From positions 124,001 to 188,000 of the forward strand of contig NZ_FQXN01000003.1 of assembly GCF_900129985.1 (NCBI RefSeq): DNA of 64,000 bases, written 5' to 3'. Below are positions 28,929 to 36,789 of this stretch, in pieces. The translations under genes and the position numbers were made by a program. Under the pieces are notes generated by a model that saw nothing but the letters and a program-made list of their open reading frames with translations, did not search any database and was not told the DNA's origin. Positions within the stretch are counted from its first letter, which is position 1, and each line of letters starts with the position of its first letter. This stretch comes from Thermosipho atlanticus DSM 15807. Lineage in GTDB: Bacteria; Thermotogota; Thermotogae; Thermotogales; Fervidobacteriaceae.

Positions 28929-28960
28929 AAATGGGGGTTGTATAACCCCCATTTTTGTTT
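28929..28960. terminator. Bidirectional terminator between fabG and the ROK regulator
   Basis: AAATGGGGGTT (28929-28939) pairs with AACCCCCATTT (28944-28954) over a 4-base loop, with T-rich tails both ways. Confidence 0.9.
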
Positions 28961-30081
28961 TAAAATTTTAATTTTAAAATATGTTCTCTTAAAGCGTCAA
29001 TTGAAGCGCCATATTCAATGTTATTTCTAAGACCACTAAATGTTATAGAAATTGGATTAAGTGAAATTGAAGATATTTTCTTTTCTAAATTTTGTACAAA
29101 CCATTTTGAAACTCCTTCTCCAGAAAGAATAATTTTTTCTGGTGTTAATAACTTAATCATATTTGAAATGAAAATTGCTAGATAGTCGAATGTATCTTTG
29201 TATAATTCTTCTGCTTTTTTTCTATATGATTTATAAAGATTTCGCATTTCGTTTAAATCATTTTCGTAATTTTCTTGGTTAGATATAAATTCTTTAATGT
29301 TTAAATTTTTGTATTTGTATTTTTTTAAATTTGCATAGTCAGAAGCAACAGTTTCAAGACATCCTACTAGGCCACAGTAGCATCTTTCGCTTCCACCAGC
29401 GTGGAAATGACCAAGTTCAATAACCTTTCTTTCGCTTTTTTCATAGATTCCGTGCGATTCATAAAAACATGCACCGATTCCAGTTCCATAATTAATTACC
29501 AATATTTTTTTTCCACCATGTTTAACAAATTCTTCCGTTGCAATAGCTTCAACATCGTTGATTATTGTAATGGTAGCATTTGGAATTAAAGTTTTGATAA
29601 TGTTTTTTGGTTCAAAATCTTTTAAATTTAATATGTTTGAATAAACTTTGTTTTTTATAATTTTTCCTGAAAAAGCGATACCAACAGCAACAATATCTTC
29701 TTTTGAAGATATTTTATTTATAATTTTTTTGATAACTTTCGGTAAATTTTCGTTTCCTATATCACTTTTGGTGAGTTTTATTGAAATTTTCTCTAACTCT
29801 TCAAAATATCCATTGAAAACCGTTAATCCTAAGCTTTCTCTACCAACCCTTACACCGATACTTTTCCAATTATCTTTGTATAATTTTACAAAATGTTTTG
29901 GTCTACCAGCAATTCGTTGGTTTTCCTGAAAAATTGATATATATTTATTTTTTTTAAGATTATTCAGTATGTAAGTTAAACTTGAAGGAGTAATTTTCAA
30001 AGTATTTATAAGTTCATTTCTGTAGACTTTTTCTTTAAAAAGTAGGTTTAAAAGTATCTTTTTGTAATTAGTTAATTTCAA
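28960..30081 (-). CDS. ROK-family transcriptional regulator of the trehalose locus
   Basis: A 373-residue repressor-type protein. Residues 1-65 form a winged helix (ELINTLKITPSSLTYILNNLKKN, then GRPKHFVKL), and the rest is a ROK sugar-kinase-like sensor domain with NYGTGIGACFY and the zinc motif ELGHFHAGGSERCYCGLVGCLE. It overlaps the TreT gene by a few bases and is co-transcribed with it, so it probably regulates trehalose uptake and metabolism, including itself. The matched TTCGAA sites in the divergent region are candidate operators. That regulatory link is inference. Confidence 0.9.
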   Translation of the reverse strand: MKLTNYKKILLNLLFKEKVYRNELINTLKITPSSLTYILNNLKKNKYISIFQENQRIAGRPKHFVKLYKDNWKSIGVRVGRESLGLTVFNGYFEELEKISIKLTKSDIGNENLPKVIKKIINKISSKEDIVAVGIAFSGKIIKNKVYSNILNLKDFEPKNIIKTLIPNATITIINDVEAIATEEFVKHGGKKILVINYGTGIGACFYESHGIYEKSERKVIELGHFHAGGSERCYCGLVGCLETVASDYANLKKYKYKNLNIKEFISNQENYENDLNEMRNLYKSYRKKAEELYKDTFDYLAIFISNMIKLLTPEKIILSGEGVSKWFVQNLEKKISSISLNPISITFSGLRNNIEYGASIDALREHILKLKF

Positions 30082-31292
30082 TAAATTACCTCCTTAATTA
30101 CTTTTAAGTACCTTTTTAAATGGGCGGTAGTTAAGAACTTTTCTTTAACAAGCTTTTTAGCATTTCTTCCAAATTCCTCTTTGAGAGAACTATCATTAAT
30201 TATATCATATAATGCATCTGCTAGTTCTTTAACGTCGTTACGTAAAAAACCGTTGAAGCCGTCAAGAATTTGTACTTTTACTCCTCCAGTAGGTCTTGCA
30301 ACAACAGGATTTCCTTTCCAAAGCATTTCTGAGATTACTAAGCCAAATCCTTCTTTAGTTGCTGTATGTAATCCTACAGTAGATATTGTTTGAAATACAT
30401 TAACTTCTAAATGTCCAACCCCTTTTAAATCTGTTAGAAAATGTATATCCGGATCTGTTCCGGCATATCTTAAAATTTCTTCAAATAGTATCCAACCTTC
30501 TGGATCATCTTTTGCCATTGCTGATACGATTAGAAGTTGTAGATCAACTTTTTCTTTTAATATTCTGTAAACGTCTATAGCACTTTTTAAATCTTTCCAA
30601 GGATCGAACCGTGCTACAACGGTAATTATTGGCCTGGTGATATCGATATTATATTTTAAAATTATTTCTTTGATAGTTTCTTCAGGAAGTTGTTTATTTT
30701 TGTCACTTAAAGGATCTATACTTGGTGGAAATTCAACTGCAATATCTTTAAAAGGTTCTTGCACGTATTCGGTTAAGTGAAACAGAGCTTTTGAATATTT
30801 TTTTGCTGCTTTTTTTGTGATTTTTTCCCAAATTATTTTATTAGGGCTGGAAGTGTCTATATGACATCTCCAAATGAACTTCCCTTCTTTAAATAAAGGA
30901 ATAAAGTATGGTTGAGGATCATGAATAATTACAATGTCAGCATCTAAATTAAGTTTTTCTGCATTTTCTTTGTTGACTTTTTCAAAAAGTTCTAATTCAG
31001 AATCTGTGATATCCACATATGCACCTTGGAATGCGTTATGAAGTTTTTTAGTTACATTAAAAAATTCATTAGGAGCTTCAAGTACTTCCCAATATGCGTC
31101 TAAACCCAAATCTCTCATTAAAGGTACTAGAGTATATAATAGTTCGGCAACGCCACCGCCATATGAAGTTGCATTAACATGAACAACTCTCAAACCTTTT
31201 AGTTCCTTTGCTAAGTTAATAAGTTCATCAACTTCATCACTTACAATATTTTTATAGTTGGAGATTCTTTTAATAGGTAATTCTACTCTCAA
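30078..31292 (-). CDS. treT: Trehalose glycosyltransferring synthase TreT
   Basis: A GT4-type glycosyltransferase that reversibly makes trehalose from NDP-glucose and glucose. The family motifs are HVNATSYGGGVAELLYTLVP near the N-terminus, VIIHDPQPYFIPLF, FIWRCHIDTSSPN, VARFDPWKDLKSAID, and HTATKEGFGLVISEMLWKGNPVVA. The start is taken as TTG at 31292, 6 bp after GGAGGTG; an ATG at 31307 begins at that ribosome site and has none of its own. About 404 residues. Divergent from the trehalose/maltose-type ABC transporter, so imported trehalose can be cleaved to NDP-glucose and glucose. Substrate assignment is by family. Confidence 0.9.
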   Translation of the reverse strand: MRVELPIKRISNYKNIVSDEVDELINLAKELKGLRVVHVNATSYGGGVAELLYTLVPLMRDLGLDAYWEVLEAPNEFFNVTKKLHNAFQGAYVDITDSELELFEKVNKENAEKLNLDADIVIIHDPQPYFIPLFKEGKFIWRCHIDTSSPNKIIWEKITKKAAKKYSKALFHLTEYVQEPFKDIAVEFPPSIDPLSDKNKQLPEETIKEIILKYNIDITRPIITVVARFDPWKDLKSAIDVYRILKEKVDLQLLIVSAMAKDDPEGWILFEEILRYAGTDPDIHFLTDLKGVGHLEVNVFQTISTVGLHTATKEGFGLVISEMLWKGNPVVARPTGGVKVQILDGFNGFLRNDVKELADALYDIINDSSLKEEFGRNAKKLVKEKFLTTAHLKRYLKVIKEVIY

Positions 31293-31307
31293 AATGTTCA
31301 CCTCCAT

Positions 31308-31326
31308 AAATTCGAATTTCGAAAAA
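31308..31326 (-). promoter_or_regulatory. Putative operator at the treT promoter
   Basis: Read on the minus strand, two TTCGAA cores (TTCGAAATTCGAA) begin 3 bp after the treT -10 element and cover the expected transcription start. A matched site lies at the same distance from the transporter -10. The likely binder is the ROK regulator. Confidence 0.5.
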
Positions 31327-31332
31327 ATTATA
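31327..31332 (-). promoter_or_regulatory. -10 element of the treT-ROK operon
   Basis: TATAAT on the minus strand, 35 bp upstream of the TTG start. The -35 region is weak (TTTTGC at 17 bp). Confidence 0.55.
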
Positions 31333-31592
31333 ACACATTTTATTTTAAAGCAAAAACAAGTTATATTGTAGAATAATATGAATTGCGAAGATTTATTATA
31401 TTATTTAATAATAATAAGATGTTAACAAATTTAATTAGCAACAATTCCAATTTTTTGTTAAATAAAAAGATATTTTTTTTGTAATGAAATAATTTTGAAA
31501 AAATTGTAATTATTCCTGATTAGTACTTTGTAAATGTGATTATTGTTCAAATTTAAACTTAAACTTAGTTTTCAAATTATCGGTAAATATGT

Positions 31593-31598
31593 TAGTAT
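31593..31598 (+). promoter_or_regulatory. Putative -10 element of the trehalose/maltose transporter operon
   Basis: TAGTAT, with a weak TTTCAA 17 bp upstream (31570-31575). Its identity is supported by the operator-like sequence placed at exactly the same offset as at treT. Confidence 0.45.
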
Positions 31599-31616
31599 TA
31601 ATTCGAAAATTGAAAA
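31599..31616 (+). promoter_or_regulatory. Putative operator at the transporter promoter
   Basis: TAATTCGAAAATTGAA begins directly after the -10 hexamer. Aligned from the -10, 11 or 12 of 16 bases match the treT-side operator, including the TTCGAAA core. Confidence 0.5.
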
Positions 31617-31643: not shown

Positions 31644-32888
31644 ATGAAAAAGTTGTTAGCTTTGGTATCTTTATTAGCGTTATTTGTCGTTTCTTTTTCA
31701 CTAACTACTATAACCATGACATCTGGGGGTGTCGGAAAAGAACTTGAGGTTTTATATGCGCAGTTAAAAGAGTTCATGAAACAGAATCCAGATATAGTTG
31801 TTACTGTTATACCAATGCCAGATTCATCCACTGAAAGACACGATTTATATGTAACTTATTTAGCTGCTGGTGAAAGTGATCCAGATGTGCTTATGCTTGA
31901 TGTTATATGGCCACCAGAATTTGCACCATTTTTAGAGGATTTGACAAAAGATTACGATTATTTTGAACTTGACAAATTTTTACCAGGAACTGTAAAATCT
32001 GTTACAGTTGATGGCAGAATTGTTGCAATACCATGGTTTACTGATGCAGGTCTTTTATACTACAGAAAAGATTTACTTGAGAAATATGGTTATGATCATC
32101 CACCACAAACATGGGATGAATTAGTAGAAATGGCTCAGAAAATTTCTAAAGCGGAAGGAATTGAAGGTTTTGTATGGCAAGGTGCAAGATATGAAGGTCT
32201 TGTATGTGATTTCATGGAATATGTATGGTCCTTTGGCACAGATGTTTTAGATGATAACGGAAATGTTATTATTAACAATCCAAAAGCAGTTGAAGCGTTG
32301 CAATTTATGGTTGATCTTATTTACAAATATAAAATTACACCAGAAGGTGTAACAACCTACATGGAAGAAGATGCAAGAAGAATATTCCAATCAGGTAATG
32401 CAGTATTCATGAGAAACTGGCCATATGCTTGGTCACTTGCAAATAGCGATGATTCTCCAATAAAAGGAAAAGTTGGTGTTGTGCCACTTCCAAAAGGACC
32501 AGGTGAAGATGGTAGACATGCAGCTACCTTAGGTGGATGGAATTTAGGTATAAACATTTTCTCATCAAAAGAAGAAAAAGAAGCTGCTAAGAAGCTTATA
32601 AAGTTCCTAACAAGTGCTAATCAACAGCTTTATAAAGCAGTAAATGCTGGACAAAATCCAACAAGAAAAGAAGTGTATAACGAACCTGAATTAAAAGAAG
32701 CCAATCCATTTATGGTAGAATTGTTCGATGTATTTATTAATGCTTTACCAAGACCAAGAACTGCAAATTACGCAGAAGTTTCTGACGCAATTCAAAGATA
32801 TGTTCATGCAGCATTGACAAGAGAGTTAACGCCTGAAGAAGCACTTTCAAAACTTGAAAAAGAATTAAAATTACTTCTTGGAAAATAA
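31644..32888 (+). CDS. Sugar ABC transporter substrate-binding protein (trehalose/maltose type)
   Basis: A family-1 solute-binding protein of 414 residues with a signal peptide (1 to about 19) and no lipobox cysteine. The MalE-like pattern is clear: GDPDVLMLDVIWPPEF-type segment near 85, AIPWFTDAGLLYYRKDLLEKYG, and AGQNPTRKEVY near the end. The ribosome site GGAGGAGGTG is strong. It opens the plus-strand operon divergent from treT and the ROK regulator, so trehalose is the likely ligand, with maltose or sucrose possible. A perfect hairpin follows the stop and probably raises its yield relative to the permeases. Confidence 0.92.
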   Translation: MKKLLALVSLLALFVVSFSLTTITMTSGGVGKELEVLYAQLKEFMKQNPDIVVTVIPMPDSSTERHDLYVTYLAAGESDPDVLMLDVIWPPEFAPFLEDLTKDYDYFELDKFLPGTVKSVTVDGRIVAIPWFTDAGLLYYRKDLLEKYGYDHPPQTWDELVEMAQKISKAEGIEGFVWQGARYEGLVCDFMEYVWSFGTDVLDDNGNVIINNPKAVEALQFMVDLIYKYKITPEGVTTYMEEDARRIFQSGNAVFMRNWPYAWSLANSDDSPIKGKVGVVPLPKGPGEDGRHAATLGGWNLGINIFSSKEEKEAAKKLIKFLTSANQQLYKAVNAGQNPTRKEVYNEPELKEANPFMVELFDVFINALPRPRTANYAEVSDAIQRYVHAALTRELTPEEALSKLEKELKLLLGK

Positions 32889-32889
32889 A

Positions 32890-32918
32890 AATTATGGGGG
32901 ACTTTGTCCCCCATAATT
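32890..32918 (+). other. Intercistronic hairpin after the binding-protein gene
   Basis: AATTATGGGGGAC (32890-32902) pairs over 13 bp with GTCCCCCATAATT (32906-32918), loop TTT. The following CTAATATTTTC is a poor T tract, so this is probably a partial terminator or 3' stabiliser rather than an operon end; the permease gene starts 25 bp later. Confidence 0.75.
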
Positions 32919-32942
32919 CTAATATTTTCATTGTGAGGTGAT

Positions 32943-33827
32943 ATGGTGCAAAAAAAAGAACCCAGAATTGCTTTTTTTATGATATTACCTGCCATTCTTG
33001 TAATTTCCGTAATTGCATTTTTCCCTTTGTTTAAAACCTTTTATGATAGTTTCTTCTCTTTCAGTTTGAATCCCAGATTTCCTAGGGAATTCATTGGTTT
33101 TGGTAATTATGTAAGACTTTTTCGTGATCCAAGATTTTGGGATGCGTTAAAAACAACGATTATTTTCACAGTTGTTTCTGTGACATTAGAAACTATTTTA
33201 GGACTGATGATTGCACTTGTTGTACATCAAGAATTTAAATTTCGTGGAGCAGTAAGAGCTGCAATGTTAATTCCATGGGCTATACCTACTGCAATTTCAT
33301 CTCAAATGTGGAGATGGATGTTTAACGACCAATTTGGTATAATGTCAAGATTTTTTGAAAAATTACATATTATTGAACCTGGTACGCCAATTCTTGGAAG
33401 ACCTGGTCTTGCATTATTTGCTATAATTCAAGTTGACGTGTGGAAGACAACACCGTTTATGGCTTTACTGATCCTTGCCGGTTTACAACTTATACCTGAA
33501 CAGTTGTACGAAGCAGCAAAAATTGATGGTGCTAATATGCTTCAAAGATTTTTTAGAATAACACTCCCACAGTTAACACCAACCATAGCAGTGGCATTGA
33601 TATTTAGAACTTTGGATGCTTTAAGAGTTTTTGATGTTGTATATGTAATGACACGTGGAAGCGTAGGAACTGAAACTTTATCCGTATATAACAGAGTACT
33701 TTTGATGGATAGAGCTTTCACCAGTGCTTCGTTTGGATATGGTTCAGCTTTGTCAGTGGTAATATTTATTTTGATATCAATATTTGCAATAGTTTATATA
33801 AAATCTTTAAAACTCCAATTTGAATGA
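32943..33827 (+). CDS. Sugar ABC transporter permease, MalF type
   Basis: An inner membrane permease of 294 residues with six segments. The EAA loop that docks the ATPase reads EQLYEAAKIDGANMLQRFFRITLPQL. GAGGTGAT precedes the ATG. It partners with the next gene to form the channel for the upstream binding protein. It follows the binding-protein gene after an intercistronic hairpin. Confidence 0.94.
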   Translation: MVQKKEPRIAFFMILPAILVISVIAFFPLFKTFYDSFFSFSLNPRFPREFIGFGNYVRLFRDPRFWDALKTTIIFTVVSVTLETILGLMIALVVHQEFKFRGAVRAAMLIPWAIPTAISSQMWRWMFNDQFGIMSRFFEKLHIIEPGTPILGRPGLALFAIIQVDVWKTTPFMALLILAGLQLIPEQLYEAAKIDGANMLQRFFRITLPQLTPTIAVALIFRTLDALRVFDVVYVMTRGSVGTETLSVYNRVLLMDRAFTSASFGYGSALSVVIFILISIFAIVYIKSLKLQFE

Positions 33828-33841
33828 GGAGTGTGAAAAGA

Positions 33842-34681
33842 ATGCAAACAAGAAAAATTATATATAAGGTAATTTTATATCTGTTAGTTGCTATTATTTT
33901 AATATGGTGTATTTTTCCTTTTTATTGGGCGGTTGTGTCATCTTTAAAGCCGGATCAAGATTTGTTTGAAATAAATCCATCACTTTTTCCAAAAAGAATT
34001 ACGTTTGAAAATTATATAAAAGTATTCACCGAAAGGCCATTTCATGTGAATATTTGGAATAGTATTGTTGTTGCTGGTACTACTACGATTGTTTCTTTAA
34101 TAATTGGTTCTCTAGCAGCTTATGCAATTGCAAGACTAAGATTTAAAGGTAAAGTTATTGTTATGTCATTGATTTTAGCAGTTAGTATGTTTCCTCAAGT
34201 TTCCATATTAGGTTCTTTATTTGTATTACTTAGAAGTATGAAGTTGATAAATACTTATCCAGGTTTGATTTTACCTTATGTATCTATCACTCTCCCATTA
34301 ACTACGTGGATTTTACAGAATTTCTTTAAAGAGTTACCAAAAGAGGTGGAAGAATCGGCAGCCATTGATGGTTGTTCAAGGCTTAGAACACTTTGGTCTA
34401 TTGTACTACCAATGGCAGCCCCAGGACTTGTTGCAACAGGATTATTGACATTTATTTCTGCTTGGAATGAGTTCTTATTTGCTCTTACTTTTATGCAAAG
34501 GCCTGAAAAGTATACCGTGCCAGTTGCAATAGCACTTTTTAAAGGTGCGTCACAATATGAAATTCCATGGGGGCAAATTATGGCTGCAGCTGTAATAGTT
34601 ACAGCACCATTGGTTATTCTTGTATTAATATTCCAGAAAAAAATTATTGCAGGTTTATCAGCTGGTTCGGTAAAGGGGTGA
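33842..34681 (+). CDS. Sugar ABC transporter permease, MalG type
   Basis: The second permease, about 279 residues, six membrane segments. EAA loop: KEVEESAAIDGCSRLRTLWSIVLP. The start is ATG at 33842, preceded by GAGGAG at about 10 bp; an ATG at 33824 overlapping the previous gene has no ribosome site. No ATPase gene follows, so an MsmX-type shared ATPase encoded elsewhere must power the system. Confidence 0.94.
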   Translation: MQTRKIIYKVILYLLVAIILIWCIFPFYWAVVSSLKPDQDLFEINPSLFPKRITFENYIKVFTERPFHVNIWNSIVVAGTTTIVSLIIGSLAAYAIARLRFKGKVIVMSLILAVSMFPQVSILGSLFVLLRSMKLINTYPGLILPYVSITLPLTTWILQNFFKELPKEVEESAAIDGCSRLRTLWSIVLPMAAPGLVATGLLTFISAWNEFLFALTFMQRPEKYTVPVAIALFKGASQYEIPWGQIMAAAVIVTAPLVILVLIFQKKIIAGLSAGSVKG

Positions 34682-36171: not shown

Positions 36172-36789
36172 TTACTTTTTAAAAGAAATTGCATTTACTG
36201 AACATACATTTTTACAATTTAGACATAACAAGCATTCTTTGTTTATGATCCTACGTTTATTATTATCAAGAATAATTATTGTATTTGTAGGACAATCCTT
36301 TTGGCATAAACCACACCCTGTACATTTTTCTTCATTTATTCTTAATTTTGTAAGTGGTTTCATGCTAAATAAGCTTAAAAGTGTTCCATATGGACATAAA
36401 TATTTATGCCAAAGTTCTTCTTCTTCTTCTTCTTCAAAAAATAGTGTAATTAGCACAGAAAAACCAACAATGTACAATAAAAGGTTTAAGCGTATTTTAA
36501 CAATTCTTGTAATTATAAATATACTTATAAATGAAAAGAGCAATATATACCTTAAAATTTTTAATTTTGTGGATGAAGTTACTTTAAATCTTTTTATTTT
36601 CAACTTTTTATACACGAAATCTATAGGTTTAAATAAAGTATCCATTGGACATATCCAGCTGCAGTAAAATCTTCCTAAAAATGGTGAAAGAAGTAAACCA
36701 CCCGCAAAAATAAAAAGCCACTTAAAAAGTGTTTGATTTTTTAATAAAATGAAAAAAATAACAAGAAAGGCTATTTGAGAAATAGTCAT
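36172..36789 (-). CDS. NapH-like membrane 4Fe-4S protein
   Basis: A 205-residue polytopic protein with about four membrane segments. Two CxxxCP motifs (FYCSWICP and KYLCPYG) and two ferredoxin-type motifs at the C-terminus (CTGCGLCQKDCP, CLLCLNCKNVC) predict two cytoplasmic 4Fe-4S clusters, as in NapH/CcoG/RnfB-like electron carriers. A run of seven Glu (GAA repeats) precedes KYLCPYG. The ATG at 36789 has no ribosome site; AAGGAGAGG lies 37 bp upstream and the path between is closed by TAA, so the 5' end may be frameshifted. No partner oxidoreductase is adjacent. Confidence 0.82.
   Translation of the reverse strand: MTISQIAFLVIFFILLKNQTLFKWLFIFAGGLLLSPFLGRFYCSWICPMDTLFKPIDFVYKKLKIKRFKVTSSTKLKILRYILLFSFISIFIITRIVKIRLNLLLYIVGFSVLITLFFEEEEEEELWHKYLCPYGTLLSLFSMKPLTKLRINEEKCTGCGLCQKDCPTNTIIILDNNKRRIINKECLLCLNCKNVCSVNAISFKK

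Follow-up and report, generated by a model that had tools for sequence, protein, structure and literature searches.

Both promoters of the divergent trehalose (tre) locus in the window, the 64,000-nt stretch of Thermosipho atlanticus DNA analysed here, carry a short dyad just downstream of the -10 element. Judged by sequence and placement, these two dyads are very probably the operators of the adjacent ROK-family repressor (TreR), which would shut off treT-treR and treEFG together. The original prediction, an autoregulated trehalose switch worked by a single ROK protein, is well supported by inference from the conserved dyads, the linked ROK gene and the near-exclusive motif. The dyads provide a clean, conserved operator candidate for TreR in the family of Thermosipho, together with its start-site geometry.

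The tre locus and its paired dyads

The arrangement is divergent, with treT and an overlapping ROK gene running leftwards and treE, treF and treG rightwards (31644-34681). The features are:

28960-30081, minus strand: treR, predicted ROK-family repressor gene, second in the treT operon
30078-31307, minus strand: treT, trehalose synthase/glycosyltransferase (TreT_GT1, PF21269, E 4.6e-49)
31311-31323, minus strand: treT-side candidate operator, TTCGAAATTCGAA, a perfect 13-bp dyad
31327-31335, minus strand: extended -10 of the treT promoter, TGTTATAAT
31327-31598, no strand: spacer from one -10 to the other, 272 bp
31590-31598, plus strand: extended -10 of the treE promoter, TGTTAGTAT
31602-31614, plus strand: treE-side candidate operator, TTCGAAAATTGAA, 13 bp with 4 of 6 dyad pairs
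31644-32888, plus strand: treE, sugar-binding protein of an ABC transporter (SBP_bac_1, E 1.6e-42)
32943-33827, plus strand: treF, ABC permease (profile match and layout in relatives)
33824-34681, plus strand: treG, ABC permease (profile match and layout in relatives)

The start of the ROK gene overlaps the end of treT at 30078-30081. The ROK protein matches Pfam PF00480 (E 3.4e-26) and an NCBIfam NagC-like model (5.8e-26, below the cut-off of that model); treT likewise matches NF041139 at 2.3e-128, below the cut-off of that model. Five genomes of genus g13 hold a treE-like gene that shares 79-80% identity with the window's treE. The ORF list begins treT at an ATG at 31307, but this falls within a GGAGG ribosome-binding site, and the treT starts of relatives align with a TTG at 31292-31290, which for these reasons is probably the true start; the treT leader in the window would therefore be very short. 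Further along the window, downstream of an amidase gene, 36172-36789 (minus strand) encodes a membrane protein with 4Fe-4S ferredoxin domains.

At both divergent promoters the gap from the extended -10 (TGN plus hexamer) to the dyad is exactly 3 nt. Neither promoter was listed by a consensus promoter scan, because the scan requires a -35. The predicted agreement of the treT-side and treE-side 16-mers at 12 of 16 positions is borne out by direct count. The chance of at least 12 of 16 at a fixed offset is 0.0012 (binomial, from base composition), and 188 of 93,330 non-overlapping 16-mer pairs within the same spacer reach 12 of 16 (0.0020). Such a match at a given offset in an AT-rich spacer is, taken alone, only moderately unlikely (~0.001-0.002), so that one genome by itself is insufficient as proof of matched dyads. 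When the window dyads were scored with a cross-clade matrix against 500 dinucleotide shuffles, the treE score was reached by 4 of the 500 and the treT score by none (0/500).

Conservation in the family

The treT gene was detected in 43 of 45 genomes of the order, and 39 further loci were compared. The window genome (G000) shares its genus with three Thermosipho MAGs (G027, G028, and G029), and the divergent ROK-treT/treEFG layout is found in all 20 genomes of its family, the window included. Sites not conserved where both genes occur had been set beforehand as the refuter of the prediction; dyads were found on both sides in 20 of 20 family genomes, a few of the sites being weak, and it is because of this conservation that the match between the treT and treE dyads is accepted as real. 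On each side, 8 of the 13 dyad columns are invariant (20 family genomes, with four treE sites placed by eye).

A blind consensus search of the 20 genomes returned the treT dyad as its best match in all 20 and the treE dyad in 16. The four remaining treE sites are those placed by eye; three of them (G023, G026, and G030) are weak, and the fourth (G016) is a perfect match hidden behind an insertion of ~1.1 kb. Shuffle tests used a matrix trained on the other clade, with 500 dinucleotide shuffles per segment (the first 320 nt of the G016 spacer were scored): the observed score was reached by at most 5 of 500 shuffles in 16 of 20 treE and 19 of 20 treT segments. Those failing the test are the treE side of G023, G026, G028, and G030 and the treT side of G028. 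The dyads regarded as weak are the treE sites of G023, G026, and G030 and both sites of G028; the weak treE sites and both G028 sites were retained in every count.

Two loci have irregularities of their own. The G016 insertion (L056) lies between treE and its promoter-operator region and resembles an insertion sequence. At a contig end in G013 (L139) there is a second treE copy with treFG-like genes, a duplication or an assembly effect.

An identical offset at both promoters, also part of the original prediction, has a more restricted range. It is present in the window; on the treE side, an extended -10 with a 3-nt gap occurs in 20 of 20 family genomes (in G028, G023, and G026, where another treE hexamer scores slightly higher, the -10 was assigned from TGN and position). 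On the treT side the 3-nt gap occurs in 11 of 20, comprising the Thermosipho clade (nine) and genus g3 (two), but it does not hold in the nine genomes of genus g2, where 14-16 nt separate the treT dyad from a -10 hexamer upstream of it that matches at 5-6 of 6 positions. The g2 gap on this side is about one turn longer, and a few g2 genomes also have a good hexamer at a gap of 1 or 3. The identical-offset rule is lineage-bound.

Proposed mechanism and relation to known systems

In the absence of inducer, one TreR dimer would sit on each operator. With the start taken, on the T. maritima pattern, to lie ~7 nt past the -10 box, each operator would span about -3 to +10, and at both promoters bound TreR would prevent the open complex from forming or the polymerase from escaping. 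The treT-treR transcript, which includes the gene for TreR itself, and treEFG would then be shut off jointly; incoming trehalose or its product would free TreR and allow both transcripts to be made. TreR binding, the effector, the start sites and the direction of effect are what we infer here. For T. maritima, PMC3636130 gives transcription starts about 7 bp from the -10 and finds the extended -10 to be the best of the modes in 63% of units.

The autoregulated trehalose switch is itself already known, TreR control of treT and treEFG having been published for Thermotogales (PMC3750489). In that account TreR is a ROK regulator that co-regulates treT and treEFG in T. maritima, treTR is induced by trehalose there, and Petrotoga mobilis is named as the one studied member of the Thermotogales in which the TreR regulon is not conserved (Rodionov 2013, citing Kazanov 2013). 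The window resembles this regulon in having the ROK gene in an operon with treT (the overlap at 30078-30081) and in an operator motif shared by treT and treEFG. No description of a -10/operator offset or of the promoter spacing was found in the open-licence papers, as far as their accessible text goes.

Outside the family the likeness is looser. Six genomes of genus g13 (probably Thermotoga) share a conserved, related element, TTCA(A/G/T)GTTACGAA, 3′ of the treT extended -10, at a gap of 14, unlike the window; treE, again unlike the window, lies outside their 8-kb treT locus. The best ROK match of each g13 genome adjoins treT but has only 27-30% identity to the window's ROK protein. In the two other families the motif is missing: the 250 bp preceding treT (20 genomes) and treE (8 genomes) gave best matches of 8-11 of 13. 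An adjacent ROK gene is lacking in 4 of the 39 compared loci. Because the ROK proteins beside treT in other families are only about 26-36% identical to that of the window, transfer of the effector from T. maritima is uncertain. The best solved relative is the Lmo0178 ROK protein (PDB 5f7p, 5f7q, and 5f7r), which comes from another organism and matches with E 3.6e-20 over residues 10-325, the N-terminal part included.

The nagE-nagBACD locus of E. coli has a divergent layout, and looping by NagC at nagE-nagB was reportedly described by Plumbridge and Kolb in 1993, going by the title of their paper. NagC there, like the putative TreR in the window, is a ROK repressor that governs a sugar locus bearing two operators (PMC10634360). 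It differs in its effector, GlcNAc-6-P, and in serving a PTS transporter, and looping is reported for NagC but only suggested for the tre locus.

Promoter spacing and a possible repression loop

An extension of the TreR-operator explanation, not an alternative to it, is that repression requires a DNA loop held by TreR-TreR contact between the operators, as with NagC on nagE-nagB, so that spacing and helical phase matter. This seems possible but less likely than not. Measured between outer hexamer edges, the two -10 elements of g2 and its sister genus g3 stand exactly 166 bp apart in 10 of 11 genomes, and 154 bp apart in the eleventh (G014); the -10 hexamers had been chosen ahead of this measurement. 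The corresponding distance for the Thermosipho clade is 252-281 bp. The neighbouring lengths in g2 and g3 vary widely: 44 to 94 nt for the treT leader (operator end to start codon), 32 to 73 nt for the treE leader (G016, with no usable length, excluded), and, from match to match, 33 to 157 for the treT-ROK spacer and 85 to 150 for the treE-treF spacer. The fixed distance suggests a constrained spacing, perhaps a repression loop. Operator spacings in the 20 genomes are also phase-coherent at 10.5 bp (R 0.78; grouped into six length clusters, R 0.82 with a Monte Carlo p of about 0.02), while start-codon distances are not (R 0.33; 19 genomes, G016 left out).

Against a loop, the phase and spacing analysis is post hoc, with few independent length changes, and G028 is out of phase. 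What stays exactly constant is the distance between promoters, whereas the operator spacing wobbles by 1-2 bp. The sequence between the promoters is not free of other similarity, either: identity over the inner 142 nt is 0.30-0.51 in 43 of 45 g2/g3 pairs and rises to 0.64 and 0.91 in the remaining two, the closest, compared with 0.30 for shifted sequences, and the column information of the 166-bp spacer, 0.56 vs 0.28 for the null (G017, a near copy of G019, and G014, with its 154-bp spacer, left out), shows that in-register similarity is retained, so other conserved elements could fix the spacer length.

A fuller version, in which the tre promoters form one length-locked unit of 166 bp (10 of 11) or change by about whole turns, with TreR dimers pairing across the loop and the treT operator moved by about one turn in one lineage with phase kept, is doubtful. 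Should the spacing constraint be true, these loci would amount to a set of naturally varied loop lengths for the ROK system of a thermophile.

Within the g2/g3 166-bp frame, conserved patches stand out at ~84-93 and ~129-143 in an otherwise diverged spacer, the second near the treE -35 region. In G023, G026, and G030 a mid-spacer element, GAAAYRTTTCCAAT, was considered as a second operator and put aside as no more than a lead, the pattern being frequent genome-wide; the GAAAYRTTTCCAAT-like element in these spacers (L053, L054, and L055) may belong to a LacI-type regulator.

Specificity of the motif and its probable binding protein

The original prediction had named the ROK protein as the obvious candidate binder, and this is upheld because its gene overlaps treT and it is the only ROK protein with an N-terminal DNA-binding part (HTH) found in the window's genome. 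A PF00480 search there returned two clear ROK-family proteins, the tre-locus ROK and a kinase-like protein of 313 aa that lacks the N-terminal part; further matches were marginal, in butyrate-kinase-like genes. The hallmarks of ROK repressors are a CxCGxxGCxE zinc motif and an N-terminal HTH with a GRP wing, and in the alignment the tre-locus protein carries both (CYCGLVGCLE and AGRPKH).

Across the 20 whole genomes the motif TTYGAAWTTCGAA has 36 distinct occurrences, of which the 20 short tre spacers contain 21. Eight of the 15 perfect matches outside these spacers were read, of which seven are internal to a long ORF and the eighth spans the end of an ORF; no recurrent target, such as a wider regulon would have, appeared among these eight. 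The looser TTCGAAWWTYGAA occurs at 5 places in the window's genome, namely the two operators and three sites inside coding sequence. The motif is nearly private to the tre locus, the pattern of a local regulator.

These observations bear on the possibility that the dyads are bound by a different regulator encoded elsewhere, with the ROK protein acting at other sites or only as a sugar sensor. In its favour, the link between the ROK protein and the dyads is drawn from sequence and gene placement, and in Thermotoga treEFG is also under a second regulator, GluR (PMC3750489). A different regulator is nonetheless quite improbable here, given a motif almost confined to the tre locus, an adjacent ROK gene linked to it in 20 of 20 genomes, and no other HTH-bearing ROK found in the window's genome. 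A role for the dyads as part of the promoter or leader (an initial transcribed sequence or an mRNA element), and not as protein sites, is very improbable: in the Thermosipho clade they do extend over the expected start point, but the treT dyad is kept in nine genomes despite lying 14-16 nt beyond the -10, its symmetry is at the DNA level, and it is nearly absent elsewhere in the genomes.

TreR is the preferred binder, and its variation among the family genomes was compared with that of the sites. With the HTH placed where we take it to be in the tre-locus protein, 18 of the 20 family genomes have P just ahead of S-T (S-S in the window); at this residue G028 has H and G023 has S. Covariation of recognition helix and operator was considered and rejected: the sites of G028 and G023 are imperfect, but G026 and G030, with P, also have weak treE sites. 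In G026 the TreR-like match (G026:C1:1807355-1808458) holds one TGA, and its aligned reading frame begins later than those of relatives. A second ROK protein, 53-54% identical to that of the window, is present only in G025 and G024 (L118 4771-5886 and L119 5763-6878), and was tried as a natural test; no close dyad match was found at its locus, except one within a coding region. In both genomes it lies near phosphate-transport-like genes.
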